The notes under the pieces are model-generated. The model did no database searches. It was given only the letters and a program-made list of their open reading frames with translations, and was not told where the DNA came from. 64,000 bases of DNA from Burkholderia sp. Bp8992 (lineage in GTDB: Bacteria; Pseudomonadota; Gammaproteobacteria; Burkholderiales; Burkholderiaceae): the NCBI RefSeq assembly GCF_003853705.1, contig NZ_QTQI01000020.1, positions 98,943 through 162,942 on the forward strand, given 5' to 3'. Position numbers and translations under genes: made by a program. Below are positions 6,083 to 64,000 of this stretch, in pieces (position 1 is the stretch's first letter; every line of letters begins with the position of its first letter).

Positions 6083-6529
6083 AGTGCGTCCGTGACGAAG
6101 AATAAAGGGCTGCAACCAAAGCTCAAGGCCCGCCCTGCCTGGGTTTCCCGCTGCGCCAGTGCAAGGTTGCCGACGGCTCTATTCTTGTCGTTCGGATTTT
6201 CGGCGGATTGATGAATTTAGACGCGTTCTTTGCCTTTTCCGCCATGCGCGTCCGTTTTATACAAGTGACCGGTCGTGCTTTTTCGGCTGACCGACCCAAA
6301 CGATGTCGGCTGTTCACCTATGGACACGCACACCGGCAGTGCGTTTGCCGCGCGTTCGGAGTGCGGCGTCTCCCGGATACGGTGCAGTGCAACATCGGCC
6401 TTACGCCCAGACAACGTATGGAGCTAGGGTTTAGCCGTATGGCACGCTTGTTGCGCTCGCTCACACAATACCGCAGCCCGATCCGTGCCCCCGGGCGTAT
6501 AGCTATTAGAGATTCTAGGAACGCTCCCC
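6083..6529. promoter_or_regulatory. Divergent promoter region between glyA and gbdR
   Basis: This 447-bp gap separates the glycine-betaine operon (minus strand) from its likely activator gene gbdR (plus strand). No convincing gene is seen. The central part (about 6180-6310) is richer in A+T than the neighbours, as expected for promoters. I searched by eye for glycine-riboswitch conserved elements and did not recognise one. A spaced direct repeat inside it is listed separately. Confidence 0.55.
6266..6293. promoter_or_regulatory. Candidate GbdR (AraC-type) operator: TGACCG direct repeat with 22-bp period
   Basis: TGACCG occurs at 6266 and again at 6288 in the same orientation, exactly 22 bp (two helical turns) apart. 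Two same-face direct half-sites are the usual binding arrangement of AraC-family activators. Its position between glyA and gbdR fits GbdR control of either promoter. The GbdR consensus was not checked. Confidence 0.35.
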
Positions 6530-48716: not shown

Positions 48717-49856
48717 TCAGCCGTCGCACGCTGCGCCGCATTGCGCGAGCGAATTCTCCCTGCTGCGAAAGACCAGCGGCTGTTCGTCGCGCGGCGCGCG
48801 AAGTCGCGCGAATTGCACGGCCTGTTCGACCTGGTCGTGATGGGCGGACTTCGTGCACACCGGATCGGCCTCGTTCGGGTCGCCGGCCAGCAGGTATGCT
48901 TGGCACCGGCAACCGCCGTGATCCGCATGCCGCTCGTCGCATGTGCGACACGGCTCGCGCATCCAGTCGTCGCCGCGAAACGCGTTGAACGCGTCGCTGT
49001 CGTACCAGATGTCCCGCAGCGACCGGTCACGCACGTTCGGCAACGCGAGCCCCGGCAGCGACCGCGCGGCATGACACGGCAGCGCGGTGCCGTCCGGCGC
49101 GACGCCGAGAAACACCGAGCCCCAGCCGTTCATGCACGCCTTCGGGCGGCGCTCGAAATAGTCGGGCACGACGAACAGGATCTTGCAGCGCTCGCCGATC
49201 AGCTTGCGATAGCGGTTGACCGTGTCCTCGGCCTCGCGCACCTGCTCGACGGTCGGCATCAACTGGTCGCGATTGAGCATGGCCCAGCCGTAGTACTGCG
49301 TGTTCGCGAGTTCCAGATAATCGGCGCCGAGATCGAGCGCCATCTCGATGATTTGCCCGACGTGCGGCAGGTTGTAGCGATGCAGCACGCAGTTGAGCAC
49401 CATCGGGTAGCCGTGTGCCTTGATCAGCCGCGCCACGTCGCGCTTCAGTTCGAACGTGCGCGTGCTGGTCAGGAAATCGTTCAGCTCGCGCGTCGAATCC
49501 TGCAGCGACAACTGGATGTGGTCGAGCCCGGCGGCCTTGAGCCGCTCGATGCGCGCGACGTTCAGCCCGATGCCCGACGTGATCAGGTTCGTATAGAAGC
49601 CGAGCCCGCGCGCATGCGCGACGAGCGCCTCGAGATCGCCGCGCTGCAGCGGCTCGCCGCCCGAGAAGCCGATTTGCGCGGCGCCGAGCGCACGCGCATC
49701 GCTGATGACCGTGCGCCATGCGTCGGTGTCGAGTTCCGCACCGTGCGTCGCGAAGTCGACCGGGTTGTAGCAGAACGCGCAGTGCAGCGGGCAGCGGTAC
49801 GTGAGTTCCGCGAGCAGCCACAGCGGCGCGGACGGACGGGAAGTGTCGGGCGCCAT
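48717..49856 (-). CDS. pqqE: PqqE, radical SAM enzyme of PQQ synthesis
   Basis: A 379-residue radical SAM protein that joins the Glu and Tyr side chains of the PqqA peptide. The SAM cluster motif TYRCPLHCAFCYN (CxxxCxxC) is near residue 22, and the C-terminal SPASM region has further cysteines (CMNGWG, PCRTCDERHADHGGCRCQ) for auxiliary clusters. The ATG is 1 nt after the pqqD stop. Last of the five pqq genes on the minus strand; no pqqF is present here. Beyond its stop lies only a tonB fragment. Confidence 0.96.
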   Translation of the reverse strand: MAPDTSRPSAPLWLLAELTYRCPLHCAFCYNPVDFATHGAELDTDAWRTVISDARALGAAQIGFSGGEPLQRGDLEALVAHARGLGFYTNLITSGIGLNVARIERLKAAGLDHIQLSLQDSTRELNDFLTSTRTFELKRDVARLIKAHGYPMVLNCVLHRYNLPHVGQIIEMALDLGADYLELANTQYYGWAMLNRDQLMPTVEQVREAEDTVNRYRKLIGERCKILFVVPDYFERRPKACMNGWGSVFLGVAPDGTALPCHAARSLPGLALPNVRDRSLRDIWYDSDAFNAFRGDDWMREPCRTCDERHADHGGCRCQAYLLAGDPNEADPVCTKSAHHDQVEQAVQFARLRAPRDEQPLVFRSRENSLAQCGAACDG

Positions 49857-49857
49857 G

Positions 49858-50139
49858 TCAGTCCAGCCAGCCGCGCAGTCGCGCATGATCGAGAAAGCGG
49901 TAGACGTCGGTCGCGAGATCCGATTGCATGAACAGGCGCTCGAGTTCGCCGATGATGTCGTCCAGTTCGCGCGTGCCGTCGCAGCGCGCGAGAATCTCGC
50001 CCGCACTGGGGTTGAGCTTGACCATGCCCTCCGGATAGAGGAGCACGTACGCATCCTGGGCCACCTCCCATTGCAGGCGGTACATGCCCCTGAGGCAGGG
50101 ACGCAGCGGCACGCCGCTGGCGGCTTCGATCGCGTTCAT
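49858..50139 (-). CDS. pqqD: PqqD, peptide chaperone
   Basis: A 93-residue winged-helix protein that binds PqqA and presents it to PqqE. The typical segments are [29 protein letters not shown] and the ending [12 protein letters not shown]; conserved patterns such as LNPSAGEIL are clear. Its ATG overlaps the pqqC stop (ATGA), and its stop is 1 nt before pqqE. Confidence 0.95.
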
Positions 50140-50855
50140 AACGGGTAGGCCTTTTCGACGGCGTCGAGCATCGACCATAGAATGTCGAGCTTGAATTGCA
50201 GAATGCCGAGCGCGCGCTGCTGCGCCTCCGGTGTCGTGAAATGCTCCAGCGTGACCGCGAGCCCATGCTCGACGTCGCGCTGCGCGAGCGGCACGCGGCT
50301 GCGGAAGTAATGCAGCCCGGCCGGCTCGATCCACGGGTAATGCGACGGCCAGCCCGCGAGCCGGTCGAGATGGATCTGCGGCGCGAACATCTCGGTCAGC
50401 GACGAGCACACGGCTTCCTGCCAGGGTGCGCGCCGCGCGAAATTCACGTACGCATCCACCGCGAAACGCACGCCGGGCAGCACGTGTTCGAGCGACCACA
50501 GTTCGGCACGCGCGAGGCCGCAGGCCTCGCCGAGCCGCACCCACGCCTCGATGCCGCCTTCGTTGTCGCCCTGCCCGTCGTGGTCGATCAGCCGTTGAAT
50601 CCAGCGGCGCCGCGTATCGCGATCGGGACAGTTCGACAGGATCGCCGCATCCTTGAGCGGGATGCAGATCTGATAGTAGAAGCGGTTCGCGACCCAGCCG
50701 CGGATCTGCGTGGGCGAACAGGCGCCGCTGTTGAGCCGCCGGTTGAACGGATGATGGATGTGATAGCGCGATTCGAGCGCACGCAGGCGCGCCTCGAATT
50801 CGGTCGCGGTCCAGGGCGTCGCGTGCAACGCCGTAGCGGGGATCGGTGCGTTCAT
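50136..50855 (-). CDS. pqqC: PqqC, pyrroloquinoline-quinone synthase
   Basis: A 239-residue all-helical oxidase that carries out the last ring closure and oxidation to PQQ without a metal. Seen motifs are [34 protein letters not shown], and [13 protein letters not shown]. It lies 2 nt after pqqB and overlaps pqqD by four bases. The length matches the family. Confidence 0.96.
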
Positions 50856-50857
50856 CG

Positions 50858-51781
50858 TCAGACCTGGAATTGCATGCCGTCGTGTGCGACGTCGATGCCA
50901 TGCGCGCGCAGGTGCGCGTGCTCGACGGAATGCGGATCGAGAATCGGGTTCGTGTTGTTGATGTGCGTGAGCACCTTGCGCGTCCGCGCGGGCAGCCTGT
51001 CGAGCCAGTCGATCATGCCGGGCCGCCCGTGTTCCGCGCACTGCGCGAGATGCCCCATGTCGGCCGCGTGCTTGCCCGACAGGCCGAGATCGATCATCTC
51101 GGTTCCGGTCCAGAACGTGCCGTCCACCAGCACGAGATCGGCGCCGTCCATGGCCGCGCGTACGTCGTCGGTAACCGACGCGAGCCCCGGCGCATAGAAC
51201 GCGCGCCGCCCGCTCGCGACGTCTTCGATCGACAGCGCGATGTTGTCGCCGGGCGCGGCCGACGCGCGCCGCGGCGAATACGGCGGCGGCTTGCTGTCGA
51301 CGGCGATCGCGGTGAAACGGATCCCGTTCGCCGCCGGCACCGCAAACGGCTCGCCGGGCACGATCATGTGCGCGGCGACGCCGCAGTAATGGTCGAGCAG
51401 CGGCACGAGCGGCAAGCCGGTCGACAGGTCGTCGAGCACCGGCGCGCTCGCGTAGAGCGGCAGCGGCGTCGAGCGCTCGCGCAGCATGAGCAGGCCCGTC
51501 ACGTGATCGATCTGCGCGTCGCACAGCACGACGGCGGCGATGCCGCTGTCGCGGATCGCGCGCGCCGGCTGCAGGTCCGGATCCGCGCGCAACTGGGAAA
51601 GAATGTCGGGCGACGCGTTGACGAGGACCCAGTCGATGCCGTCGTCGCTGACCGCGATCGACGACTGCGTGCGAGGCAGCACGTGGCCGCTTCCGCTGCG
51701 CGCACGGCGGCAGTTCGCGCAATTGCAGTTCCATTGCGGCAGCCCGCCGCCGGCTCCCGAGCCGAGTATCTTGATCTTCAT
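50858..51781 (-). CDS. pqqB: PqqB, metallo-beta-lactamase-fold PQQ protein
   Basis: A 307-residue protein with a metallo-beta-lactamase fold that hydroxylates the PQQ precursor. The N-terminus [19 protein letters not shown] is diagnostic, followed by NCANCRRA with structural-metal cysteines and [11 protein letters not shown] at the metal centre. It lies 61 nt after pqqA. Confidence 0.96.
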
Positions 51782-51842: not shown

Positions 51843-51917
51843 TCAGCGGTTGGCGATGTACATCGTGATTTCGAAGCCGAAGCGCAGGTCGGTGTAAGAC
51901 GGTGTCGTCCACTGCAT
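51843..51917 (-). CDS. pqqA: PqqA, 24-residue PQQ precursor peptide
   Basis: The peptide runs from [20 protein letters not shown] to IANR. Glu16 and Tyr20 in the E-x3-Y motif are the residues that become PQQ. The ATG has GGAGAC upstream. It is first in pqqABCDE and lies about 75 nt downstream of a predicted sigma-54 start site. It is too short for most gene finders. Confidence 0.95.
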
Positions 51918-52000
51918 GGTGTGTCTCCTGTCGAGTTGATGATTGATGCGTTGCTGGATGAATCGAACAACCGCGGCAATCGAGCGGTCGGTTCCTCTTC

Positions 52001-52016
52001 AGCAAGGAGCGTGCCG
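52001..52016 (-). promoter_or_regulatory. Sigma-54 promoter of pqqABCDE
   Basis: On the minus strand the sequence reads CGGCACG-CTCC-TTGCT, close to TGGCACG-N4-TTGCW, with GG and GC exactly 10 nt apart. It lies 84 nt upstream of the pqqA start. Confidence 0.72.
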
Positions 52017-52229
52017 AAGCCGTACATTCGCCGCGCCGCGGCGGTAGACGGCCCTCATCCGGGCATCGGGACGCATTCCTTACGAACAGCCTACGAGATT
52101 CGCGCGAATGCGGTTCGCCACCCCGGCGGCAGGATGTCCGCGAGTGGTGACAGGTGTTGAATCGTTGAACACCGGTGTTGCAACTTGACACACCGGCTGT
52201 GACAGGTCGCGCACGGCGCGACGAGCGCG

Positions 52230-54260
52230 TCAGCTCTCGTCCGACGGATGGCGCCCCGCGTCGGCGGCCGGCATCTTCCGGTAGATCGTGTTGCGCGAGA
52301 CGCCGAGCGCGCGCGCCGCGGCGGACACGTTGCCGCCATGACGCGCGAGCGCGGCGGCGATCGCGGACGCGGCGACGTCCTGCAGGCGCGCGTCGGCGAG
52401 CGGCAGCGCGTCCGCGACGCAGGGCCCGGCGCTCGCCGCGGCGGCCGAATCGGGGATAACCTGTGCAGCCGGCGCATCGCCGCGCCGCAGGTCGTCGAAG
52501 AAGTCGTCGGGCAGGTGCTCGCGCCGGATTTCGCCATCGTCGTCGACCATGGCCGCCGCCGTGCGCAGCAGGTTGCCGAGCTGGCGGAAATTGCCCGGCC
52601 ACGTGCAGCGCACGAACAGCGCCATCACGTCCGGTGCGACGGACAGCGGCGGCCGGCCCGGGTCCGCGAACGCTTCCCGTTGCAGCATCTTCTGCACGAC
52701 GACCGCGAGATCCGTGCGGTCGCGCAACGGCGGCAGGCGCACCACGAGGCCGTTCAGCCGGTAGTAGAGATCCTCGCGAAAACGGTTCTGCGCGATCATG
52801 TCGCGCAGATCGCGGTGCGTCGCGCAGATGATCGCGATGTCCACGGCGATCGTCTTCGTCGACCCGAGCGGGTTGACGAGGCGCTCCTGCAGCACGCGCA
52901 GCAGTCGCACCTGCAGCGGATACGGCATGTCGCCGATCTCGTCGAGAAACAGCGTGCCGCCGTTCGCCTGGAGCAGCTTGCCGATCGCCCCCTTGCGGCG
53001 CGCACCGGTGAAGGCGCCCTCCTCGTAGCCGAACAGCTCGGATTCGATCAGCGTCTCCGGAATCGACGCGCAGTTGACCGCGACGAACGGGGCGTCGCGC
53101 CGCGGCGAGTCGTTGTGGATCGCCTGCGCGAGCAGCTCCTTGCCGGTGCCGGTCTCGCCGGTGATCAGGATCGGGATGTCCTTGCCGATCACCTTGCGCA
53201 CCTTCGCGATCACGCACGCGACCTGCGCATCGCCGGTGTCGAGATAGTTGAGCCGCGACAGGCCGGCCGACGTGCCTGCAGCCGGTGCGGGCACCGCGTT
53301 CGCGCGTGCGGCCGGCGCCGCCGCAGCGTGGACGTCCGTCGGCCGGCTGCCTTCGGCGAGCGTCGAGCGGCGAAAGTGCACGCGCGCGCAGACCACCGCA
53401 CCGTTGACGAGATTCAGCATCAGGTGCCGGTCGGTGCTCGCGCGCATGCGGTCGATCAGCTGCGCACTGGTGATGTCGAACAGCGACGACAGCGTGTGCG
53501 CGCGCAGCGCGGCGAGCGGCATGCCGAGCTGGAACTGCGCACTGCGGTTGGCCGACAGGAAGCGCCCGTCGGCGGTGAACGCGACGATCCCCTCCATCAG
53601 CGTGCCGAGGAACTCGGGGCGTCCGTGGAACGACACCTGCAGCGTTTCCTGGAAGGTCGTCGTAAACAGATGATTCTCGATCATCTGCACCGACATCTTC
53701 GCGAGCGCCATCGTGTGCTGGTGATAGCTGCGGTGGTCGCCCGTCACGTCGAGCACGCCGATCGCGTCGCCGTACGGATCGAGGATCGGTACGCTCGAAC
53801 AGGTCAGGAAGCGGTTCGCGGCCAGGAAGTGCTGGTCGCCGTGGACGACCATCGGGCACAGCTCGGCCAGCGCCGTGCCGATCGCGTTGGTGCCCTGCCG
53901 ATTCTCCGCCCAGTTCGCGCCCGGGCGCAGCGCGACCTTCTCCGCGCGGCGCAGGAAATCGTCGTCGCCGATCGAATGCAGGATCAGCCCTTCCGCATCG
54001 GTCAGCACGATCATGCTCTGCGTATTGACGATCTGCTCGTGCAGCGTCTCCATCACCGGCATCGCGTGCACGCACAGCACCCGGCTCTGCTCGCGCTTCA
54101 GCACCAGCGCCGAGTTCGACAGCACGTCGTAGTCGGGCCGTGCCGAGACCTGCAGGCCGAACGTCTCTGAGCGCTCGTGAGCCTTCTGGATCGACGGCGC
54201 GGGCCAGCCTGCGGGATGCGCGGCCCGTGACCCGGCCGCCTGCTCTACGTCATCGCGCAT
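52230..54260 (-). CDS. AcoR-type sigma-54-dependent activator
   Basis: A 676-residue enhancer-binding protein. Residues about 60-215 form a GAF-like sensor (VLTDAEGLILHSIGDDDFL, WAENRQGTNAIGTALAE), then a PAS-like segment. The AAA+ domain lies at about 375-610 with Walker A GETGTGKE, the sigma-54 contact loop EGAFTGARRKG, and Walker B TLFLDEIGDM. A Fis helix-turn-helix ends the chain (NVSAAARALGVSRNTIYRKM). The ATG at 54260 has GGAGGAGAC upstream. Relatives (AcoR, AcxR) respond to small alcohols, ketones or aldehydes. Its place beside pqq and dehydrogenase genes with sigma-54 promoters suggests it controls them. Confidence 0.9.
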   Translation of the reverse strand: MRDDVEQAAGSRAAHPAGWPAPSIQKAHERSETFGLQVSARPDYDVLSNSALVLKREQSRVLCVHAMPVMETLHEQIVNTQSMIVLTDAEGLILHSIGDDDFLRRAEKVALRPGANWAENRQGTNAIGTALAELCPMVVHGDQHFLAANRFLTCSSVPILDPYGDAIGVLDVTGDHRSYHQHTMALAKMSVQMIENHLFTTTFQETLQVSFHGRPEFLGTLMEGIVAFTADGRFLSANRSAQFQLGMPLAALRAHTLSSLFDITSAQLIDRMRASTDRHLMLNLVNGAVVCARVHFRRSTLAEGSRPTDVHAAAAPAARANAVPAPAAGTSAGLSRLNYLDTGDAQVACVIAKVRKVIGKDIPILITGETGTGKELLAQAIHNDSPRRDAPFVAVNCASIPETLIESELFGYEEGAFTGARRKGAIGKLLQANGGTLFLDEIGDMPYPLQVRLLRVLQERLVNPLGSTKTIAVDIAIICATHRDLRDMIAQNRFREDLYYRLNGLVVRLPPLRDRTDLAVVVQKMLQREAFADPGRPPLSVAPDVMALFVRCTWPGNFRQLGNLLRTAAAMVDDDGEIRREHLPDDFFDDLRRGDAPAAQVIPDSAAAASAGPCVADALPLADARLQDVAASAIAAALARHGGNVSAAARALGVSRNTIYRKMPAADAGRHPSDES

Positions 54261-54559
54261 TGTCTCCTCCGGGGGATCCTTCCGGTCAACTGCCGGACTC
54301 TTTGCCGTCATTACAAGCAAGCATCGGGCCATGCCGGCGCCACGGCATGCATTGAAAGCACAATGTAATGAATAGCCTGGGCGCGGCGGAGCGTGCCGCG
54401 TCGCGCGACGGCCAGTCCTTCCTGATACCGCGATTTCCCGCCGCATGACTACCCGTGCGAATCCGGATCCGCGCAGCCGGCATGCTTTTCGCTCGCTTCG
54501 TCGCAAGGCAGCCCCGGCGCCCGACGATTCCCCTCCCGTTCCGCCTGAACCCTATCGAC

Positions 54560-55576
54560 ATGACGCGTCGCCCGACTCGATCCACGCCGTCGCCCCCGCC
54601 GCGGGCCTTGCCCGACGCGCCGGCGTCGCCGGTCACGCCCGTTCACCGGCGCCTGCACCGCGACGCGCAATCGATCGCATTCACCGTGGCCGGCGCCGCG
54701 CAGGGCCATCCGGTCGTCGTGCTGCACGGCGGGCCAGGCAGCGGCAGCCAGGCCGGCATCCTGCGGTTGTTCGACCTCACCCGCGTGCGCGTCGTGCTTG
54801 TCGACCAGCGCGGCGCGGGTGCGTCGGCACCGCGCGGCGGCACGCGTCACAACGACACCGCACGGCTGATCGCGGACCTGGAGGCGGTGCGCGAGCAGCT
54901 CGGCATCGCACGCTGGGGCGTCGTCGGCGGCTCGTGGGGCGCCGCGCTCGCACTTGCGTATGCGGGCACGCATCCGCAGCGGGTGACGGGCGTCGTGCTG
55001 CGCGGCCTGTTCCTGACGTCGCCACGCGAAGTCCGCGGGCTCTTCACGACTTCCCGCACGCGTGCGCCGCGCGAGTGGCGGCGCCTTCATGCAGCGGCCG
55101 GCGGCGGCCGCCCGGATCGCCTGCTGCCGCGCTGCGCGCAGCGGCTGCGCCACGGCGGGAGCGCGGCCGGGCAGCGCGCGGTGGCGCTCGCGTGGCACGC
55201 GTACGAAAACGCGATCCTCGCGTCGGCGCGCACGCGCCGCTCGCCCGTGCGCGCGATCCGCTCGAACAAGACCGTCGGCCGGCTGATCGACAAATACCGG
55301 ATTCAGGCGCACTACCTGCAACACGATTGCTGGCTCGGCGAGCGCCGCGTGCTCGCGCTCGCGCGACGGGCCGCGCAAGCCCGCGTGCCGCTGTTCGCCG
55401 CGCACGGGTTGCACGATCCCGTTTGCCCGGTCGGCAATGTCGAGCGCCTCGCGCGAGCCGTCCCCGAAGCCGAAATCGAACGCGTGAAGGCCGGACATCT
55501 GGCAAGCGACCCGGCATTGGCGCGCAGCGTCGCACGCGCCGTGAACGCGATGTTCTCGACGGTGCCGTTCACGTGA
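54560..55576 (+). CDS. Proline iminopeptidase-like alpha/beta hydrolase (S33)
   Basis: A 338-residue hydrolase. The S33 signatures are VVVLHGGPGSGSQAG near residue 45, VDQRGAGASAP, and the nucleophile motif VGGSWGAALALAYAG near residue 115. A His follows in VKAGHLASDP. The start is taken as ATG 54560; a longer start at 54455 would add an Arg/Pro-rich segment not typical of the family. The central part (AAGGGRPDRLLPRC) looks less conserved than usual. Its link to the alcohol genes around it is not obvious. Confidence 0.75.
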   Translation: MTRRPTRSTPSPPPRALPDAPASPVTPVHRRLHRDAQSIAFTVAGAAQGHPVVVLHGGPGSGSQAGILRLFDLTRVRVVLVDQRGAGASAPRGGTRHNDTARLIADLEAVREQLGIARWGVVGGSWGAALALAYAGTHPQRVTGVVLRGLFLTSPREVRGLFTTSRTRAPREWRRLHAAAGGGRPDRLLPRCAQRLRHGGSAAGQRAVALAWHAYENAILASARTRRSPVRAIRSNKTVGRLIDKYRIQAHYLQHDCWLGERRVLALARRAAQARVPLFAAHGLHDPVCPVGNVERLARAVPEAEIERVKAGHLASDPALARSVARAVNAMFSTVPFT

Positions 55577-55618
55577 CGGCCGCGCGCTCGTTCGTGTCGC
55601 GACGCGACCGCGCACCGC

Positions 55619-57949
55619 TCAGTCCCACGCATAGTGCATGCCGACCCAAGCGCCGCGCGGCGCGCCCGGCCCGACGAACTGTTCGTTCACCGGATTGGCG
55701 CCGTCGAACGTGTGATTCGGTCCGTTGAAGAAATTCCGGCCGAGTGCGCCGAAGCTCGCGTAGCGCTTGTCGAACAGGTTCGTCACGCTCGCGAATACCT
55801 CGAACCGCTTCGTGACCCGGTAACGCATGTCGAGATCGACCAGCACGTAGCCCGCGATCCGGCCGTTCACGTCCGCGTTGTTCTCGTCGCCGCGCGCATA
55901 TACGCCGCTGCGCCACGTGACGTTCGTGCCGATGTCCCACGCGGGCGTCGCCGCGTAGTCGAGCCGCAGCTTCACCGTATGCGCGGGAATGCCGGGCATG
56001 CGGTCGCCCGGCTTGACCGCCACGTTGCCGTTCGCGTCGGCCGCCGAATTCGCCGGACTGTGCTCGGTCCACGACGATCGATAGGTCGCATCGACATAGC
56101 TGTACGACAGCCCGGCACCGAGCGGCCCGAAGCGCGTACGGCCGGCGAGCTCGATACCCTGCCGCCGCGTATCGCCGACATTGCGGAAGTAGCCCTGCGC
56201 GCTGGCCGGGCTGCTGATGAACTGGATGTCGTCGGTCAGCGTCGTGCGGTAGGCCGCCGCGCTCCAGGTCGTCGCCGCGCCGATGCGGCCGCGCATGCCG
56301 GCTTCGAACGTCTTCGAGATCACGGGTTTGAGCGCCGGGTCAGCGATGAAGTCGTTCGGCAGCGAACACGGCGCGGCCGGGTCCGCACACGCGAGCTCGA
56401 TCGCGGTCGGCGAACGCATGCCTTCGTTGTAGGCCGCATACGCGGTGAAGCCCGCGACCGGATTCCAGTTGAGCCCGACGGCCGGGTTGAAGCGCGAGAA
56501 CACATGGTTGCCGTCGAGCAGCGGCTGCACGCCGCTCTCGTCGCCGATCTGCGCCTTCGACCAGTCGTAGCGGCCGGACAGCGTCAGCGTCCAGTGCGGC
56601 GTGAGCGACAGCGCATCGCTCAGGTATGCACCGAAGTTCGCGTTGCGCGTCTTCGCGCTGGTCTGCCGAACGAAATCGCCGATGCCGATCGCCGCACGCG
56701 CATCGGTGAAAGACGCGTCCTGCGACGACGCGACGTAGCTCGAGTTCGCGACATCGGCCGAAACGCCCGCGACCAGCCGGTTCGCCATCCCGCCGAGCTT
56801 GCCGAGCAGCGTGAGCTGCACGCTGCCGCCGTAGCTGTCGGTGACGATCGTCGATTGCGCGTTGCTGCCCTGCACCGTGTCGACCGTGCCGCCCTCGTTC
56901 ACCGATCCGTAGTCCGTATTGTTGTTGCTGCTCGTGTTCGCGTTGCGCAGGTGCCGGTAGTACGCGTTGCCGCTCAGCTCGACGTTTTCACCGAAAAAAC
57001 GGTCGCCCGACAGCGTCAGGTAGCCGGCGCTGTTGCGGTTCCGGTCCGGATACGTATACGCCTGCTTCGGGTTGTCGAGGAACGAGCGCGGGATCGTCTG
57101 CGTGCCGGACAGCGTGTTGTCCGCGCCGCCTGCGGCAATCGACAGCGTCGTATCCGCATCGGTATAACGCAGCTTGCCGAACGCCTGCCGCACGCGGCTC
57201 GCGTTATGGTCGGCCCAGCCGCCGTCGTTCGCGACGTTCGCGGTCGCGTAGTAGTCGAGGTTCGAGCCGATCGTCCCGCCCTGCTCGACGCTGGCAGTCT
57301 TGCGGCCCCACGCGCCGCCCGACACCTCCGCTTCGCCACCCTGGTCCGACCTGCCGTTCTTCGTCGTGATCGCGAGCGCACCGCCGAGCGTATTGAGCCC
57401 ATACACCGGGTTGGAGCCCGGAATCAACTGCACGCGGTCGATCGCCTGGGTGGGCAGGATGTCCCAGTTTACGACGTCGCCGAACGGCTCGTTCACGCGC
57501 ACGCCGTCGACGAACACCGACAACCCCTGCGGCGTGCCGAGCAGCGGCGATGCGGTGAAGCCGCGATAGTTGACGTCCGTCTGATACGGGTTGCCCTGCG
57601 CATCCGAGATCGTCACGCTCTGCAGGTTCGCGGCGAAGAAATCGGCGAGCGTCGCGCGGTGTTGCACGTCGAGTTCCGCCGCGCGCACCGTCTGCACGTT
57701 CGCCGGCACCTTCGACAGCGGCGTGCCGATCCCGAGCAGCGGCGCCGTACCGACGACGACCACCGCGGGCAGCACGACGGCCGGCTCGGGCGGCGCGATC
57801 GCGGCGCCATCCGCCTGCTGCTGCGCGCGCACGCTGCCGGGCGGCAGGCCGAACAGCGCGAGCACGCCGACGGTCGTGCCGATGCATCGCGCACGCCGGC
57901 CACGCCGCGTCGCGCCGTCACGCGCGGCTGCCTTTGGTCTCCTGATCAT
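55619..57949 (-). CDS. TonB-dependent receptor, divergent from the PQQ dehydrogenase
   Basis: A 776-residue outer membrane receptor. A signal peptide (VGVLALFGLPPGSVRAQ) is followed by a TonB-box-like LPAVVVVGTAP, the plug domain (SVTISDAQGNPYQTDVNYRG, VYGLNTLGGALAITTKNG), and a barrel ending WVGMHYAWD. The ATG at 57949 with GGAGAC upstream is used; the longer frame is antisense. It is divergent from the lanthanide-type alcohol dehydrogenase across 429 bp that contains two opposed sigma-54 promoter matches. In methylotrophs, receptors such as LutH near lanthanide genes import lanthanide chelates, so a similar cargo is possible. Iron or another chelate cannot be excluded. Confidence 0.87.
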   Translation of the reverse strand: MIRRPKAAARDGATRRGRRARCIGTTVGVLALFGLPPGSVRAQQQADGAAIAPPEPAVVLPAVVVVGTAPLLGIGTPLSKVPANVQTVRAAELDVQHRATLADFFAANLQSVTISDAQGNPYQTDVNYRGFTASPLLGTPQGLSVFVDGVRVNEPFGDVVNWDILPTQAIDRVQLIPGSNPVYGLNTLGGALAITTKNGRSDQGGEAEVSGGAWGRKTASVEQGGTIGSNLDYYATANVANDGGWADHNASRVRQAFGKLRYTDADTTLSIAAGGADNTLSGTQTIPRSFLDNPKQAYTYPDRNRNSAGYLTLSGDRFFGENVELSGNAYYRHLRNANTSSNNNTDYGSVNEGGTVDTVQGSNAQSTIVTDSYGGSVQLTLLGKLGGMANRLVAGVSADVANSSYVASSQDASFTDARAAIGIGDFVRQTSAKTRNANFGAYLSDALSLTPHWTLTLSGRYDWSKAQIGDESGVQPLLDGNHVFSRFNPAVGLNWNPVAGFTAYAAYNEGMRSPTAIELACADPAAPCSLPNDFIADPALKPVISKTFEAGMRGRIGAATTWSAAAYRTTLTDDIQFISSPASAQGYFRNVGDTRRQGIELAGRTRFGPLGAGLSYSYVDATYRSSWTEHSPANSAADANGNVAVKPGDRMPGIPAHTVKLRLDYAATPAWDIGTNVTWRSGVYARGDENNADVNGRIAGYVLVDLDMRYRVTKRFEVFASVTNLFDKRYASFGALGRNFFNGPNHTFDGANPVNEQFVGPGAPRGAWVGMHYAWD

Positions 57950-58024
57950 TCCGTTGTCTCCGCACTTGTATTCCGCCGGCCCGTGCGATGCACCGCGCGG
58001 CGCCGAGTTGTCGCGAAGCCCGCT

Positions 58025-58040
58025 CGCGAGAACCGTGCCA
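58025..58040 (-). promoter_or_regulatory. Candidate sigma-54 promoter of the TonB receptor
   Basis: On the minus strand: TGGCACG-GTTC-TCGCG. The -24 element is perfect and GG/GC spacing is 10 nt; the -12 element is weaker. It lies 76 nt before the receptor start. Confidence 0.5.
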
Positions 58041-58272
58041 ACGCCGCAACGACGGGCAGTGTGCGCTGCGCCGCACATCGCTTTGGACAGGCATGCGTGA
58101 AACCGGCGGCCCGCCGTTCCGCGGACTGCACCACCTGTCATGTTTGGCAACACTTCGCGCGCGACGGTGTACCTGAATGCAACACCTGCGTCGACGCCAT
58201 GGCGCGTGTCGTCGCTCGACGCATCACCGGCGATGCGCCGGTGTGCCGCACCACCCCGGCTTCCGGCCGTGA

Positions 58273-58288
58273 TGGCATGCGACTTGCA
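58273..58288 (+). promoter_or_regulatory. Sigma-54 promoter of the PQQ alcohol dehydrogenase
   Basis: TGGCATG-CGAC-TTGCA matches the -24/-12 consensus with one change, and GG and GC are 10 nt apart. The dehydrogenase start codon is about 80 nt beyond the expected transcription start. Confidence 0.75.
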
Positions 58289-58378
58289 TAACGGGCAGTG
58301 CACTCGGCCCGGAACCCCACCGTGCCGGCGCGACGAATCGTTCGCGGCGGTGCGACCACAATGACCCAGGAGACAACC

Positions 58379-60100
58379 ATGAAGAAACCCTCGGCTTCAG
58401 CGAGCCGGCTGGCGGCGTTCGGAATCGCGGTGGCGGCCGCCGTCGCGCTGAACCCCGGCCTCGTCGAAGCGGCCGCGGACTACCCGGCCGTGACCTACCA
58501 GCGCCTGACCGATGCACACGGCGATCCGGGCTGGCTGACCTACTACCGCACCTACGACGGCCGCTCGCATTCGCCGCTCAAGCAGATCGACACGTCGAAC
58601 GCGAAGGATCTCAAGCAGGTGTGGGCGTACAAGTTCCCCGCCGACCTGAAGCAGGGTTTCGAGGCCACGCCGATCGTCAACGGCAACTACCTGTTCGTGA
58701 CGACGCCGAAGGACAACGTCTACGCATTCGATGCGAAGACCGGCAAGCAGCTGTGGAAATACGAGCCGAAGCTCGGCGCGGCCTCGTTCAAGACCGCGTG
58801 CTGCGACGTCGTCAACCGCGGCGTCGCGCTGTACGGCAAGAACGTCTACATCGCGATGCTGAACGGCGAAATCGCGGCGCTCGACGCGCAGACCGGCAAT
58901 CTCGTGTGGAAGAAGCAGATGTTCGAGCCGGGCCTCGGCTACGCGTTCTCGCTCGCGCCGCTCGCGATCGACGGCGCGATCGTCGTCGGCACGTCCGGTG
59001 GCGAATACGGCATTCGCGGCTACATCGCCGCGCTGAATCCGGAGGACGGCTCGCAGGTCTGGAAACGCTACACAATCCCCGACGCCGGCGAAAAAGGCGC
59101 GGAAACCTGGCCCGACGGCATGCAGAGCCATGGCGGCGGCGCCGCATGGCTCACCGGCACGTACGACGCCGCGTCCCGCACGCTGTACTGGGGGGTCGGC
59201 AACCCCGGCCCATGGCTCGCGGCGCTTCGTCCCGGCGACAACCTGTATTCCGACTCGCTGCTCGCACTCGATGCAAAGAGCGGCAACCTGAAGTGGCACT
59301 ACCAGTACACGAACAACGACACGTGGGACTACGACGGCGTGAACGCGGCCGTCCTCGCGGACATCAAGTACAAGGGCAAGGACTACGACGCGATCATCCA
59401 CGCCGACCGCAACGGCTTCTTCCACGCGATCGACCGCACGACCGGCAAGCTGATCTACGCGACGCCGTTCGTGAAGGCGTTGTCGGTCACCGGCTACACG
59501 GCCGACGGCAAGCCGATCCAGGACGCATCGAAGTTCCCGAAGGCCGGCACGACGATCGAGACGTGCCCGAGCTTCCTCGGCGGCAAGAACTGGTGGTCGA
59601 TCTCGTACGACCAGGAACGCAACATCGCGGTCGTGCCCGCGCTGCATGCGTGCATGAGCCTGACCGGCAAGTCGGTCAGCTACATGGAAGGCCTGCCGTA
59701 TCTCGGTGAAGGTTTCGAGATCAAGCCCGAACCGGGCAGCGAAGGCTACGGCGAACTGACGGCCATCGACGTGAACACCGGCAAGAAGCTGTGGAGCCAC
59801 TGGTCGAAGAAGCCGTGGAACGGCGGCGTCGCGACCACGGCGAGCGGTCTCGCGTTCAGCGGCTCGCTCGACGGCCACCTGTACGCGTTCGACACGACGA
59901 CCGGCAAGGTGCTCTGGGAAAGCCCGCAACTGGCGAGCGGCATCATTTCGCAGCCGTCGGTGTACGAGGTCGACGGCAAGGAGTATGTCGCCGTGCTCGC
60001 CGGCTACGGCGGCGCGAACCCGATCTGGGGCGGCCCGATGGCCGACATCGCGAAGGACGTTCCGCGCGGCGGCACGCTCTACGTGTTCGCGCTCGACTGA
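58379..60100 (+). CDS. PQQ-dependent alcohol dehydrogenase with lanthanide-type active site (XoxF/ExaF/PedH-like)
   Basis: A 573-residue periplasmic quinoprotein with a signal peptide and eight-bladed propeller. The adjacent cysteine pair that forms the PQQ-site disulfide is in KTACCDVVNRG. The catalytic base is Asp317 in NDTWDYDGVN, and Asp319 two residues on is the extra aspartate found in lanthanide-dependent dehydrogenases, where calcium enzymes have Ala, Ser or Thr. There is no C-terminal heme domain. The ATG at 58379 has GGAGAC upstream. It follows a sigma-54 promoter and precedes its likely electron acceptors. Substrate is probably a small primary alcohol; methanol or ethanol cannot be told apart here. 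Confidence 0.9.
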   Translation: MKKPSASASRLAAFGIAVAAAVALNPGLVEAAADYPAVTYQRLTDAHGDPGWLTYYRTYDGRSHSPLKQIDTSNAKDLKQVWAYKFPADLKQGFEATPIVNGNYLFVTTPKDNVYAFDAKTGKQLWKYEPKLGAASFKTACCDVVNRGVALYGKNVYIAMLNGEIAALDAQTGNLVWKKQMFEPGLGYAFSLAPLAIDGAIVVGTSGGEYGIRGYIAALNPEDGSQVWKRYTIPDAGEKGAETWPDGMQSHGGGAAWLTGTYDAASRTLYWGVGNPGPWLAALRPGDNLYSDSLLALDAKSGNLKWHYQYTNNDTWDYDGVNAAVLADIKYKGKDYDAIIHADRNGFFHAIDRTTGKLIYATPFVKALSVTGYTADGKPIQDASKFPKAGTTIETCPSFLGGKNWWSISYDQERNIAVVPALHACMSLTGKSVSYMEGLPYLGEGFEIKPEPGSEGYGELTAIDVNTGKKLWSHWSKKPWNGGVATTASGLAFSGSLDGHLYAFDTTTGKVLWESPQLASGIISQPSVYEVDGKEYVAVLAGYGGANPIWGGPMADIAKDVPRGGTLYVFALD

Positions 60101-60117
60101 ACCGGCGCCACGCCTGG

Positions 60118-60148
60118 TCGCGCCCGCATGCGCCCGATGCGGGCGCGA
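60118..60148. other. Intercistronic stem-loop after the dehydrogenase
   Basis: A perfect 12-bp stem (TCGCGCCCGCAT / ATGCGGGCGCGA) with a 7-nt loop lies in the 79-nt gap before the cytochrome gene. It lacks a T-run, so it could protect the upstream mRNA and set unequal expression. Confidence 0.55.
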
Positions 60149-60179
60149 CGCCCCACCCGCTTCAACCGGACACACGATC

Positions 60180-61385
60180 ATGAATACTCGTCTCACTTCC
60201 GTTACCGTCGCCAGTCTGCTCGCCGTGGGCGTGGCGCTGACACCGGCAGCCGCGTCGGCCGGCGTGCGCGTCTGCACGCTGCCCGGCAGCCCGACCACCA
60301 CGCTCGACCGCTCCGTTGCGCGCGAAGTGTTCCGCGCCGCGGGCATCGCCGCGACCTTCAACAAGCGCGGCGTCGACGACAACGGCGACGACGACGGCAT
60401 CTCCGCCAGCGAGCTGACGAAATCGCTCGAACGCGACTGCGATGTGATCGCCGGCTTCCCGCGCTCGGCGATCGCCGATGCGTCGGGATCGAAAATGACG
60501 TTCTCGCAGGGCTATCTGCGCTCCGGCTACGTCAGCGTGTCGCTGCGCGACGCGCAAGCGTCGTCCGGCGCCAAGGAAACGATCGCGGCCACGTACGGCA
60601 GCCCGTCGCAACTGATCGCGGCGCAGCAGGCGAATGCCCGCTTCGACCTCGAAAACACCAGTGAGAAAACGATCGGCGCGCTCGCCGCCGGCCGCGCACA
60701 GCGCGCGATCGTCTGGTATCCGAGCGTCGTCGCGTACGAGCGTGCGCACCCGAAACAGCAGTTCAAGGTAGCGGCGACGGCATCGCCGTACTCCGACTGG
60801 CAACTGTCGTTCGCATTCGGGCCCGGCAAGGACGCACTGCAAAAGCGCATCGACGCGACGCTGTCGCAGATGAGCGGCAACGGCCGTCTCGCGTCGCTCA
60901 CGCGCGGCTGGACGCTTCCCGACGACATCGCGCAAGCCGCCACCACGCGCGTGCCCGGCCGGTTTCTCGACGGCGCGGTCGCGTCCGCGCAGCGGCCGGC
61001 AAGGAGCGGCTTCATCAAGGTGTCGACGGGCGAAGGCAGCGGCGTCCCGTCGTTCGACCAGGCGCAGGTGCAGCACGGCAAGAAGCTCTACGGCGATGCG
61101 TGCGCGAAATGCCATGGCGACCAGCTCGAAGGCAATACCGCGCCCGCGTTGAGCGGCGAATCGTTCGCGCCTGAAGGCAAGTCGCACATCACGGTCGGCG
61201 GCATCTTCCTGTACATGTCGAGCAACATGCCGGCCGATCGCCCCGGCAAGATGACCGCGCAGGAATACGAGGACCTGATGGCGTTCCTGCTCTACTCGAA
61301 CGGCTACGACGCGTCACAGAGCAAGCTGACCGCCGATATCGCCAACGCGTCGAAGGCACCGCTCATCGCCGGACCGCGCAAGTAG
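60180..61385 (+). CDS. Fusion of XoxJ-like binding domain and cytochrome c
   Basis: A 401-residue periplasmic protein with signal peptide (SLLAVGVALTPAAASAG). Residues about 28-255 resemble the quinoprotein-associated substrate-binding proteins MxaJ/XoxJ (VRVCTLPGSPTTTLD, DCDVIAGFP). Residues about 290-400 are a cytochrome c with heme motif CAKCH (Cys308) and a Met ligand probably in YMSSNMPAD. An acidic EF-hand-like loop DDNGDDDGISASE lies at residues 66-78. In methylotrophs, XoxJ and the XoxG cytochrome are separate proteins that activate and oxidise XoxF; here they seem fused. It is 79 nt after the dehydrogenase gene. Confidence 0.85.
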   Translation: MNTRLTSVTVASLLAVGVALTPAAASAGVRVCTLPGSPTTTLDRSVAREVFRAAGIAATFNKRGVDDNGDDDGISASELTKSLERDCDVIAGFPRSAIADASGSKMTFSQGYLRSGYVSVSLRDAQASSGAKETIAATYGSPSQLIAAQQANARFDLENTSEKTIGALAAGRAQRAIVWYPSVVAYERAHPKQQFKVAATASPYSDWQLSFAFGPGKDALQKRIDATLSQMSGNGRLASLTRGWTLPDDIAQAATTRVPGRFLDGAVASAQRPARSGFIKVSTGEGSGVPSFDQAQVQHGKKLYGDACAKCHGDQLEGNTAPALSGESFAPEGKSHITVGGIFLYMSSNMPADRPGKMTAQEYEDLMAFLLYSNGYDASQSKLTADIANASKAPLIAGPRK

Positions 61386-61418
61386 CCTCTCCACCCGCTT
61401 TCGCACCGATCGACCGCC

Positions 61419-61441
61419 GCGCCGGGAAGCTTGCCCGGCGC
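61419..61441. terminator. Stem-loop between the cytochrome and HiPIP genes
   Basis: An 8-bp stem (GCGCCGGG / CCCGGCGC) with a 7-nt loop, followed 12 nt later by TTTTT. It may terminate part of the transcripts. Three tandem TTCAT units (61461-61475) follow it. Confidence 0.45.
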
Positions 61442-61488
61442 GCGGGCCGGACTTTTTCCATTCATTTCATTTCATTCAGGACCGCATC

Positions 61489-61803
61489 ATGATCTCCCGT
61501 CATCGCAGAACCTTCTTCGTGCAGGCGGCCGGCCTGTGTGCCGCACTCGCAACCGGCACCCGTGCATTCGCGGCCACACCGCCCGTCGACGAGAACGACG
61601 CGGCAGCAAAGACGCTCGGCTACCGCGCAAAGGCGACGACCGTCGACGCCGGCAAGTTTCCGAAGTACCAGGCCGGCCAGACGTGTTCGAACTGCCGCTT
61701 CTACAAGGCTGCCGCCGGCGAATCCTCCGGTACGTGCCCGATGTTCGCGGGCAAGACGGTTGCCGCCGAAGGCTGGTGCAACGTCTATGCGAAGCTCGCC
61801 TGA
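61489..61803 (+). CDS. High-potential iron-sulfur protein (HiPIP)
   Basis: A 104-residue precursor. The twin-arginine signal [17 protein letters not shown] targets a folded cluster protein to the periplasm. The mature part has the four cluster cysteines in [15 protein letters not shown] and GWCNVY, as in HiPIPs. It is a soluble one-electron carrier, probably between the PQQ dehydrogenase/cytochrome and a terminal oxidase. AGGA lies upstream of the ATG. Its last 17 nt overlap the start of the sigma-factor gene. Confidence 0.92.
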
Positions 61804-63658
61804 CGTCGGGCCCGCTCGCGACGGCGCGTCGCGGCGCGGCGCGGACGCAGAAAGCGCGGCGCATCTGCATGCGTTGGTCGCGCTGGGCATCGACCGCGGA
61901 TACGTGACGCACGGCGAAATTGCCGATGCGTTGCCCGATGACGCGGCCGACGGTGCGGATGTCGATGCCGCCGCGTCGATGCTGCGCGAGTTCGGCGTCG
62001 ACGTACGCGAGCATGCCGGCGCACGCACCGCGTGGACGCTCGACGGCCATTTTGAGCAAGCGTCGGAAATCGCGCCGCCGCTCGCCGACGCATCGACGCC
62101 GCTCGCGGCCGACGACCTGCTTGCAGGCCAGACCAACGACCCGATCCGGCTCTATCTGCGGGAAATGAGCGCGACGCCGCTGCTCGAACGCGACGAAGAG
62201 ATCGCGCTCGCGCTTCGTCTGGAAAGCGGCCGCGCCGCATGCATCGACGCATTGAGCCGCGATCCGGCGGCACTCGCCGTCGTCGCGGCGATCGCGGACG
62301 ACATCGGCGCCGGCAAGGCGGCCGCGTCGGCTTACGTGACGGGGCTCGCCTGTGACGCCGAGCCGCCCGCGAGTGCGCCGACGATTCTGCCCGACGATCC
62401 GGCCACGGAATCGCCTGCGCAGGACGACACCGGTCTTTCTCTCGACAGCCCGGCGTGGCGCGATACGGTCGTCGAAGCGCTCGAGCGTATCGGTGCGCTG
62501 GCGCCAGCGATGCAGCAGGCATTGCACACCGACGGTTTCACGTCGGTCGGTTACCGGTCGCTGTTGCGCGAGGCGGCCGCAGCGACCGGCAGGGTCCGCT
62601 TCACCTTGCGTGCGATCGAGCGTATCGGTCATGCAAACCGCGAGCGCGCGACCCAAGCGCGCACGTTCGAAAAGCGGCTCGTCGACACGCTGGCCGCCTC
62701 GGGCATCCGTACGGAATCCGCGCGCCACGATCTCTTCACGCGGTGCGACGACATACGCGCATGGCTGCACGCATGCAGCGCCGCGCATCCAGCATGTGCC
62801 GCCGCACTCGCCCGCCATGCGCCCACGCTGATCGAAACGCGCAGCGCGCTCGCTTGCCTCGCCGGCCAGTCGCCGTTGCCGCTCGACATCGCAATAGCGC
62901 TCGATGCGCGGCTCTTGCGTATCGAGCGTGCGATGCAACCCGCGAGAACGAAGCTGTTCCAGAGCAACCTGCGGCTCGTCGTGTCGGTCGCCAAACGCTA
63001 TGCCGATCGCGGCCTGCCGTTCTCCGACCTGATCCAGGAAGGCAACATCGGCCTGATGAAGGCCGTCGATCGCTACGATCACCGGCGCGGCTTCAAATTC
63101 TCGACCTATGCGACGTGGTGGATCCGGCAGGCGATCACGCATGCGCTCGCCGACCTGGGGCGCACGATACGCGTGCCCGCGCACACGGTCGATGCGCTCA
63201 ACAAGCTGTCGCGGCTCGCGCGAATCCACCGGCAACGAACCGGCGACGTCGCCGACGCGCGGGCGCTTTCCGCGCAGATGCGGCTGCCGGTCGATAAGGT
63301 GCGCGAGCTGATGAGCATCGTGCGCGAACCGATCTCCGCCGACCTGCCGGTTTCGCCCGATCACGACCTCACGCTGTGCGACGTCACGATCGACCCCGAC
63401 GCGCCGACGCCGGAAGAAGCGGCGAGCGCCGGTCAGTTGCGCGCGGCGGTCGCGGCGCTCATCGATTGCCTTCCCGCCCGCGAAGCCTGGATTCTTCGCC
63501 TGCGATACGGCATCGATGTCGAAAACGAGTATTCGCTGCGCGAGATCGGCCGGCAACTGAACCTGTCGGCAGAGCGCGTCCGTCAGCTCGAGGTATCGGC
63601 GCTCGAACGCATCCGGCAATTCAGGCACGCACCGGCGCTGCGCTCGCTGCTCGCCTGA
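61787..63658 (+). CDS. Second RpoD-like sigma-70 factor
   Basis: A 623-residue group 1/2 sigma factor. Region 1.1 is present ([20 protein letters not shown] near residue 30), then [18 protein letters not shown] (region 1.2). Region 2 carries [20 protein letters not shown] and [18 protein letters not shown], followed by regions 3 and 4 ([20 protein letters not shown]). The non-conserved region between 1.2 and 2 is long. The start ATG 61787 overlaps the HiPIP gene; it is chosen because region 1.1 begins soon after it. It differs enough from housekeeping RpoD (for example a shortened, acidic-poor N-terminus) to be an accessory copy, which is inference without alignment. Confidence 0.85.
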
Positions 63659-63846
63659 CGCGGCCGTGCCGGGCGACCGCCTTGCGGCTCGCACACCCAT
63701 TGCTCAGGACTGCAACACGACCTGCTGCATTTCTGAACGCAGCGTCGCACCGCGCTGCCGTTCTCGACGCCACGGGGCCGCTCGGATCAGGCGCCACATG
63801 CCCGGCCGTCGCGGCTTTCGCCGCAGGCACGCACCGGTCGTACAAC

Positions 63847-63862
63847 TGGCATGCATGTTGCG
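63847..63862 (+). promoter_or_regulatory. Sigma-54 promoter of the acetyl-CoA synthetase gene
   Basis: TGGCATG-CATG-TTGCG keeps GG and GC 10 nt apart and lies 35 nt before the start codon. Its -24 half is identical to that of the PQQ dehydrogenase promoter. Confidence 0.65.
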
Positions 63863-63896
63863 TTTTCCCGAGCGCCGGCAGGAATCACATGAACGC

Positions 63897-64000
63897 ATGG
63901 AGACACGCTTGTCCAAGATCGATTCGGTTCTTCACGAAACCCGTCAGTTCGCGCCGCCCGCGGCGCTCGAGAAGGCGGCCACCATTTCCGGCATGCCGGC
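63897..64000 (+). CDS. Acetyl-CoA synthetase, 5' end only
   Basis: Only 34 codons are in the window: [20 protein letters not shown], then [14 protein letters not shown]. This matches the N-terminus of Burkholderia acetate-CoA ligases as I remember them. It would turn acetate from alcohol oxidation into acetyl-CoA. The ATG at 63897 has AGGAA upstream; an ATG at 63889 is in another frame. The call is limited by the short visible part. Confidence 0.6.

Follow-up and report, generated by a model that had tools for sequence, protein, structure and literature searches.

A probable sigma-54 regulon for PQQ-dependent alcohol oxidation under an AcoR-related activator in Burkholderia and its relatives

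How a bacterium might bring the synthesis of a redox cofactor, the dehydrogenase that uses it and the later use of its product under common control is the question raised by a stretch of 64,000 nucleotides from Burkholderia sp. Bp8992 (contig NZ_QTQI01000020.1, positions 98,943 to 162,942), referred to here in its entirety as the window. This DNA, which resembles that of the Burkholderia cepacia complex, carries genes for the synthesis of pyrroloquinoline quinone (PQQ), a PQQ-dependent alcohol dehydrogenase, a TonB-dependent receptor, the beginning of an acetyl-CoA synthetase gene (acs) and, in their midst, the gene of an activator of sigma-54-dependent promoters. An earlier reading of the letters alone, hereafter the original prediction, had placed cofactor, enzyme, receptor and product use under one switch, and promoter conservation together with enhancer repeats supports this as the best reading. 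Very probably, judging from the comparisons below, one activator with GAF, AAA+ and Fis domains, a relative of AcoR, runs a sigma-54 regulon for periplasmic alcohol oxidation. Its members would be pqqA(BCDE), the lanthanide-type dehydrogenase with its likely electron-transfer partners, the TonB receptor, an unlinked acetaldehyde dehydrogenase gene (exaC), acs and, probably, the gene of the activator itself.

Both strands of the full 64 kb were scanned with a sigma-54 weight matrix approximated from the known consensus. All four sites named in the original prediction were found with the GG-N10-GC spacing: ahead of the dehydrogenase (58273..58288, plus strand, TGGCATGCGACTTGCA, matrix rank 1, predicted transcript start at about 58299), pqqA (52001..52016, minus strand, CGGCACGCTCCTTGCT, rank 2, predicted start at about 51990), acs (63847..63862, plus strand, TGGCATGCATGTTGCG, rank 8), and the receptor (58025..58040, minus strand, TGGCACGGTTCTCGCG, rank 11). 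A fifth site, missed at that time, lies 56-71 nt before the start codon of the activator's own gene (54316..54331, minus strand, TGGCCCGATGCTTGCT, rank 3). When the 250-nt upstream regions were shuffled with dinucleotides preserved, the observed score was reached in 8 of 2000 shuffles for pqqA, in 0 of 2000 for the dehydrogenase and in 8 of 2000 for the activator; the corresponding counts were 65/2000 for the receptor and 35/2000 for acs, so that these two sites are weak if taken alone. Motif counts by themselves were rejected as evidence, because a loose pattern scan of the window, allowing 3 mismatches, returned 535 matches where 603 were expected from shuffles, and hence no excess. The only exact TGGCAC-N5-TTGC of the window, at 6440-6454 on the plus strand, holds matrix rank 5.

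We regard conservation across related loci as the decisive evidence for these sites. The 80 homologous loci compared came from the genera Burkholderia, Paraburkholderia, Caballeronia and Trinickia and from one Ralstonia metagenome-assembled genome (MAG); the window was added as one row, and a site was counted when it scored at least 10 within 250 nt upstream of the gene (starts used in the window: pqqA 51917, activator 54260 and receptor 57949, all on the minus strand; dehydrogenase 58379 and acs about 63897, on the plus strand). Rows were dropped if the match started past residue 15, if identity was 35% or lower, or if fewer than 100 nt were available upstream; this removed 21 of 39 loci for the receptor, 13 of 27 for the proline iminopeptidase-like gene (pip), 4 of 16 for an RpoD-like sigma-70 gene, 2 of 46 for pqqC and 1 of 67 for a cytochrome fusion gene. 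Thus counted, a sigma-54 site precedes pqqA in 64 of 69 rows (the remaining five score 9.7), the dehydrogenase in 64/68, the activator in 69/81, the receptor in 16/19 and acs in 9/9. The activator's own site, moreover, is present in 69/69 rows with a linked pqqA and in 0/12 rows without one. Among control genes the counts were 2/67 for the cytochrome fusion, 0/32 for the gene of a high-potential iron-sulfur protein (HiPIP), 2/45 for pqqC, 0/45 for pqqE, 0/12 for the sigma-70 gene, 3/15 for pip and 8/65 for pqqD; the 43/44 obtained for pqqB arises because its 250-nt upstream region extends into the pqqA promoter. In the alignments of the pqqA, dehydrogenase and activator upstream regions, the -24/-12 boxes and the repeats described below stand out as islands of conservation in sequence that otherwise shows a mean identity to the window of 0.44-0.48, and an rpoN gene was present in 5/5 genomes searched.

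These counts bear directly on a quite different account. In Pseudomonas, ExaDE/AgmR exert two-component control, and the genes of the window could be governed in that way, or as by PedS2/PedR2, with the sigma-54 sites fortuitous or of minor weight. The closest characterised dehydrogenases are indeed under two-component control in the available text of PMC6115532 and PMC12997753. Such an account, however, would need the sites at five promoters to have been conserved by coincidence, and none of the 13 genes assigned between pqqE and acs, these two included, encodes a sensor kinase or a LuxR-type regulator, which leads us to consider it very improbable.

If an enhancer-binding protein acts on these promoters, its binding sites should be recognizable upstream, and the search for inverted repeats suggested along with the original prediction was therefore carried out. 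A palindrome, TGT-N11-ACA, with the consensus TGTTGCA-N3-TGCAACA, occurs in pairs ahead of three promoters, those of pqqA, the receptor and the dehydrogenase. The putative enhancer repeats of pqqA lie at 52155..52171 (promoter-proximal) and 52176..52192 (promoter-distal), with centres 21 bp apart; those between the receptor and dehydrogenase promoters lie at 58136..58152 and 58168..58184, with centres 32 bp apart. Upstream of acs, a putative repeat with one degenerate half-site (63701..63717) scores at least 10 in 7/8 orthologues and is accompanied at a distance of 22 bp between centres by a possible, weak second one (63723..63739, score 5.0). Repeat centres are found 98-169 bp upstream of the -24 GG. 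There are 10 copies of TGT-N11-ACA in the whole 64 kb, and four fall in the pqqA-activator and receptor-dehydrogenase intergenic regions, where two copies were reached in 2/5000 and 22/5000 shuffles of the two regions. After training on 101 distinct sites in related loci, the window not included and identical sites of close relatives included, an enhancer matrix puts these four sites at ranks 1-4 in the window (58168 first, then 52155, 52176 and 58136), and the two acs repeats at ranks 8 and 24.

Among the related loci, the 400 nt ahead of the gene contain the palindrome in 61/69 rows for pqqA, 64/68 for the dehydrogenase, 16/19 for the receptor, 3/9 for acs and 17/81 for the activator. Five control genes gave 0/67, 0/32, 0/44, 0/45 and 0/12 (together 0/200 rows); the counts were 1/14 at pip and 7/65 at pqqD. 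The expectation of a repeat before each promoter is thus borne out for pqqA, the dehydrogenase and the receptor and more weakly for acs; it fails for the activator, where the trained matrix finds a repeat in 6/68 rows. Autoregulation of the activator through a local enhancer was on this ground dropped as unsupported. We likewise rejected the repeat alone as a predictor of targets, as matches with one mismatch in three genomes hardly exceeded those of a reversed control (36 vs 33, 77 vs 62, 34 vs 19).

The activator (52230..54260, minus strand) combines a GAF domain (PF01590), an AAA+ Sigma54_activat domain (PF00158, 1.6e-68), AAA_lid_14 and a Fis-type helix-turn-helix (PF02954), and its best named relative is a protein of Burkholderia cenocepacia NCTC13227 with 97% identity over residues 1-675. 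The EGAFTGA loop, predicted to be intact, is so, and recurs in 79/80 homologues. Its AAA+ sigma-54 interaction domain, GAFTGA loop and Fis-type helix-turn-helix, taken with the palindromes upstream, are those of a sigma-54 enhancer-binding protein. Regarding the label AcoR-type, kinship with AcoR holds, whereas identity with the acetoin AcoR is not established, and the genes assigned between pqqE and acs include none for an acetoin dehydrogenase. Variation in the recognition helix provides a link between this protein and the repeats. In seven loci belonging to one clade (six from Trinickia and one MAG labelled Paraburkholderia) the helix reads SRAT in place of SRNT and, counting only sites upstream of pqqA and the dehydrogenase, the promoter-side half-site is CAACA in 144/169 sites and CGACA in 0/169 at the SRN loci, but CGACA in 11/21 and CAACA in 1/21 at the SRA loci.

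To see how far the regulon might reach, the sigma-54 core and the repeat were scanned jointly in the genomes of B. cenocepacia, B. metallica and B. ubonensis, with a reversed pattern as control. Matches per genome numbered 8, 10, 6 and 10, 4, 8 (totals 24 and 22), and those of the reversed pattern 0, 1, 2 and 3, 5, 1 (totals 3 and 9). Of the 45 loci obtained, 22 share sequence with another and come from four places, namely the dehydrogenase, pqqA, exaC and one unexplained place (L135/L137, with one poor repeat) that we did not accept as a target; the 23 non-recurrent loci include acs of B. ubonensis. A scan of five genomes for CAACA with the sigma-54 core gave, besides the dehydrogenase, mostly matches without evident link. 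The acetaldehyde dehydrogenase recovered by the joint scan, recognized by the NCBIfam model ExaC with 902 bits against a cutoff of 900, is encoded apart from the cluster in the three scanned genomes. Across 27 exaC upstream regions, three of which derive from the joint scan itself and are therefore not independent and eight from loci with a separate activator, a sigma-54 site scoring at least 10 is found in 25 and the repeat in 25. In seven Trinickia-type loci exaC is near or inside the cluster. The divergently transcribed neighbour of exaC likewise carries a sigma-54 site in B. cenocepacia and B. metallica (L120, L130). As for acs, its reading frame begins at about 63897 and is cut by the window end (63897..64000, plus strand), leaving the N-terminus only; the B. 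cenocepacia orthologue matches AcsA with 969 bits (cutoff 725). Based on these sites, the steps from alcohol to aldehyde, acid and acetyl-CoA would share one promoter class, and they would also share one operator class, in which acs is included less firmly.

Several observations weigh against a single switch of such reach. The sigma-54 sites of the receptor and acs, taken singly, are attainable by chance; that of the receptor is missing in 3/19 rows and that of the dehydrogenase in 4/68 (L045, L051, L054, L076), where mis-set starts or longer leaders are possible. The activator promoter has no conserved repeat nearby, which leaves autoactivation unexplained. The SRA loci form one clade in a tree of the activator cut at residue 600 (the helix starts at residue 630 at the earliest), so that the change of helix and operator counts as one event and not as repeated proof, and no repeated, independent changes were found in that tree. 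The acs gene is linked in just 8/80 loci, its enhancer in the window has the degenerate half-site already described, and in the nearest compared genome the sigma-70 gene is followed not by acs but by another gene, chemotaxis-receptor-like by eye. Finally, a 53% identical paralogue of the activator, also with similar sites, exists in B. cenocepacia, B. ubonensis and Paraburkholderia xenovorans, making cross-talk possible, and eight activators at 74-75% identity (L057, L058, L059, L060, L061, L064, L068, L070) adjoin exaC and have similar sites.

With the sigma-54 promoters taken as real, control might instead be split among AcoR-family paralogues, with the linked activator serving pqqA, the receptor and the dehydrogenase, and exaC and acs left to an acetoin AcoR, the 53% paralogue or a member of the exaC-linked clade. 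All eight activators of that clade are divergent from exaC, and a repeat, mostly of the TGTTCC...GGAACA kind, is found upstream of exaC in 7/8, apparently the sign of a duplicated and subdivided regulon; TGTTCC...GCAACA is found upstream of the 53% paralogue in B. cenocepacia, and the weak acs repeat of the window would also favour such a division. Nine loci, however (from Paraburkholderia, Caballeronia and two labelled Burkholderia sp.), have exaC and the dehydrogenase transcribed divergently with the repeat in common, two exaC repeats of the SRA clade also carry GCGACA, and in B. cenocepacia no activator homologue is found next to exaC. We therefore deem split control rather unlikely, and a single activator for all these genes the better account.

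Under control by this single activator, we infer binding, effector, ring formation and induction to proceed as follows. RNA polymerase with RpoN would wait in the closed state at the -24/-12 boxes of the five local promoters and of the exaC promoter. Activator dimers would bind the paired TGTTGCA-N3-TGCAACA-like sites 21-32 bp apart, with centres 98-169 bp upstream of the -24 GG, and an effector sensed by the GAF domain, most likely an alcohol or its aldehyde, would allow assembly of the AAA+ ring, whose GAFTGA loops would then open the promoter. One pair of sites (58136-58184), lying between the divergent receptor and dehydrogenase promoters, could serve both, and the activator promoter might be driven from the distal repeat pairs or by another activator.

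Which alcohol dehydrogenase would this switch command? The protein encoded at 58379..60100 (plus strand) matches TIGR03075 with 564 bits (cutoff 480), and its best match in the PDB is PedH (6zcw), ahead of ExaA (1flg). In the aligned motif it reads WDYDGVN, PedH WDFDGVN and ExaA WDFSGNN, and Asp-x-Asp is present in 67/67 orthologues, with the second Asp two residues after the catalytic one, as in enzymes of the PedH/ExaF type. This second Asp is the residue of the lanthanide type. In the available text of PMC12997753, PedH needs Ln3+ and PedE needs Ca2+. Because of the PedH-like Asp-x-Asp and the Ln3+ requirement of PedH, the enzyme of the window is probably a lanthanide enzyme as well. It is followed by a protein that ends in a cytochrome c domain and whose N-terminus weakly resembles MoxJ/GlnH (60180..61385, plus strand; PF13442; TIGR03871 0.00013, below cutoff) and by the HiPIP (61489..61803, plus strand; PF01355, 3e-22), and this cytochrome fusion and HiPIP (60180-61803) are candidates for an electron chain that would be unusual for a PQQ dehydrogenase.

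The TonB-dependent receptor (55619..57949, minus strand; PF00593, PF07715) could import a lanthanide chelate or PQQ. Were it to import PQQ and not metal, the regulon would gain its cofactor by both synthesis and uptake and would include no lanthanide uptake. In three Paraburkholderia genomes a homologue of the receptor (64-67% identity, partial at the stretch end) is encoded a few kb from pqqBCDE, and PqqU is among the NCBIfam matches of the receptor itself, with 112 bits, far below the cutoff of 1200. The best NCBIfam match, however, likewise below cutoff, is a general siderophore-receptor family, and the lanthanide motif of the dehydrogenase argues against a role in PQQ uptake alone, which we thus hold to be a serious but lesser possibility.

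The question of how widely this arrangement applies was approached through more distant relatives. An activator homologue at E <= 1e-150 was found in 27/200 genomes drawn from the order, and, G001 aside, 15 of the remaining 26 matching genomes supplied 15 distant regions, with activators 46-61% identical. In 13/15 the surrounding 10 kb or so hold pqq genes, a gene like exaC or a homologue (33-43%) of the PQQ dehydrogenase, and in 10/15 a sigma-54 site scoring at least 12 precedes one of those genes, the receptor or the activator; L164 and L170 show none of the three linkages within about 10 kb. As the repeat is missing before many of the distant promoters, the operator is shown for the Burkholderia-Paraburkholderia-Caballeronia-Trinickia group only. 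Within it, L044, L034, L062 and similar Paraburkholderia loci have just pqqA and pqqD beside the activator, with pqqBCDE elsewhere and without a detected pqqA. Of three such genomes, two have pip before the separate pqqBCDE and all three encode a receptor homologue not more than a few kb from it, and no convincing pair of sigma-54 site and enhancer was found upstream of it; the switch would here reach no more than the precursor peptide and its chaperone. At L027 (Paraburkholderia adhaesiva, G210), an activator and a lanthanide-type dehydrogenase occur without a linked pqqA or an activator promoter, and with no pqqC match in the genome, which could indicate a PQQ scavenger or an incomplete assembly. 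On a bolder and more speculative view, which we put forward only tentatively and think somewhat more likely wrong than right, a self-amplifying alcohol regulon would extend throughout the Burkholderiales, where one cytoplasmic, one-component sensor of alcohol or aldehyde would replace the two-component lanthanide switch and command every step, from the precursor peptide of PQQ through the lanthanide dehydrogenase, the receptor and ExaC to acetyl-CoA synthetase; where pqqA-pqqD stand apart from pqqBCDE, the supply of PqqA would then be the control point of PQQ synthesis.

The remaining genes complete the cluster. On the minus strand, pqqE-D-C-B-A and the activator come first; a divergent alpha/beta hydrolase on the plus strand and the receptor on the minus strand come next; the dehydrogenase, cytochrome fusion, HiPIP, sigma-70 gene and start of acs then follow on the plus strand. 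The PQQ genes, all on the minus strand, are pqqE, a radical SAM maturase (48717..49856; TIGR02109, 524 bits, cutoff 381), pqqD, a peptide chaperone (49858..50139; TIGR03859, 115 bits, cutoff 46), pqqC (50136..50855; TIGR02111, 342 bits, cutoff 240), pqqB (50858..51781; TIGR02108, 394 bits, cutoff 245) and pqqA, a 24-aa PQQ precursor peptide (51843..51917; PF08042, 1.7e-11). Exactly where the pqqA transcript is predicted to begin lies an inverted repeat of the form RACCGC-loop-GCGGTY (51969..51989, minus strand) with conserved pairing: its inner five pairs are kept in 68-69 of 69 rows. It is mostly invariant, so that covariation is thin (C-G to T-A in one row); the repeat might serve as an operator or stabilise the transcript as a 5' hairpin. 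The alpha/beta hydrolase, pip (54560..55576, plus strand, divergent from the activator; PF00561; TIGR01249 211 bits, below the cutoff of 260), is a candidate peptidase for PqqA processing, and a pip-like hydrolase also adjoins pqq genes in L161, L165, L181 and L182. The RpoD-like sigma-70 family gene (61907..63658, plus strand, start codon unsure; PF04542/04539/04545), between HiPIP and acs, scores 426 bits, under the RpoD cutoff of 555, and was matched in 16/80 loci, some of the matches being partial.

How, then, does this regulon compare with known systems? AcoR and acoD of Alcaligenes eutrophus reportedly pair an activator of the AcoR family with an aldehyde dehydrogenase target, as proposed here for exaC; they differ in serving the catabolism of acetoin. 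P. xenovorans encodes another enhancer-binding protein, distinct from the present activator and 40% identical, beside E1 alpha and beta dehydrogenase genes of the NCBIfam pyruvate dehydrogenase type (beta over cutoff, alpha below), which we take to be those of acetoin breakdown. A literature search found no recognised description of the present regulon, subscription journals being mostly beyond its reach. The available main texts of two P. phymatum RpoN/nitrogen transcriptome studies (PMC5979394, PMC5748707) and of a study of B. cenocepacia H111 NtrC (PMC5491218) contain no mention of PQQ, quinoprotein, pyrroloquinoline, alcohol dehydrogenase or acetyl-CoA synthetase, and neither support nor refute it. 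In Ralstonia solanacearum, according to the accessible text of PMC4676750, rpoN1 is required for growth on ethanol and the AcoR homologue Rsc3129 is predicted to regulate ExaC (Rsc3128), so that an AcoR-like enhancer-binding protein and ExaC as its predicted target are common to both cases, whereas PQQ and alcohol dehydrogenase are absent from that main text and no operator is given. Control of a PQQ alcohol dehydrogenase by sigma-54 is not unprecedented either, as exaA of Azospirillum is reported to depend on sigma-54 and a LuxR-type regulator (cited in PMC6115532); what is reported there is predicted here, but the regulator of the window is of the GAF-AAA+ kind, and a regulon with pqqA, receptor, exaC and acs is not mentioned in the available part of that source. 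BmoR of Thauera butanivorans, as described in the available text of PMC6366067, is also an alcohol-regulated factor acting on a sigma-54-dependent promoter, that of an alkane monooxygenase. In none of this comparison literature, as far as its accessible text goes, do a GAF-AAA+ activator, pqqA, a lanthanide-type dehydrogenase, a receptor and acs appear together.

The proposed wiring combines elements of known kinds and is well supported by comparison. The defined operator pointed to an unlinked step of the pathway, exaC; how Burkholderiales control their PQQ supply and their use of alcohols can be tested directly, and the locus supplies a promoter/activator pair that may respond to alcohol and whose operator code can be mapped. 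The closest parallel in content is the ped cluster of Pseudomonas putida, which likewise unites PQQ dehydrogenases, pqq genes and aldehyde oxidation, with lanthanides used by PedH and, according to a review, without a LutH homologue in KT2440 (available text of PMC6115532 and PMC12997753). The contrast drawn in the original prediction agrees with these same sources, in which PedS2/PedR2 provide two-component control through a LuxR-type response regulator. Whereas the characterised Ca/lanthanide alcohol dehydrogenases of Pseudomonas are thus under two-component switches, in the Burkholderia locus sigma-54 and a one-component AAA+ sensor apparently take their place.

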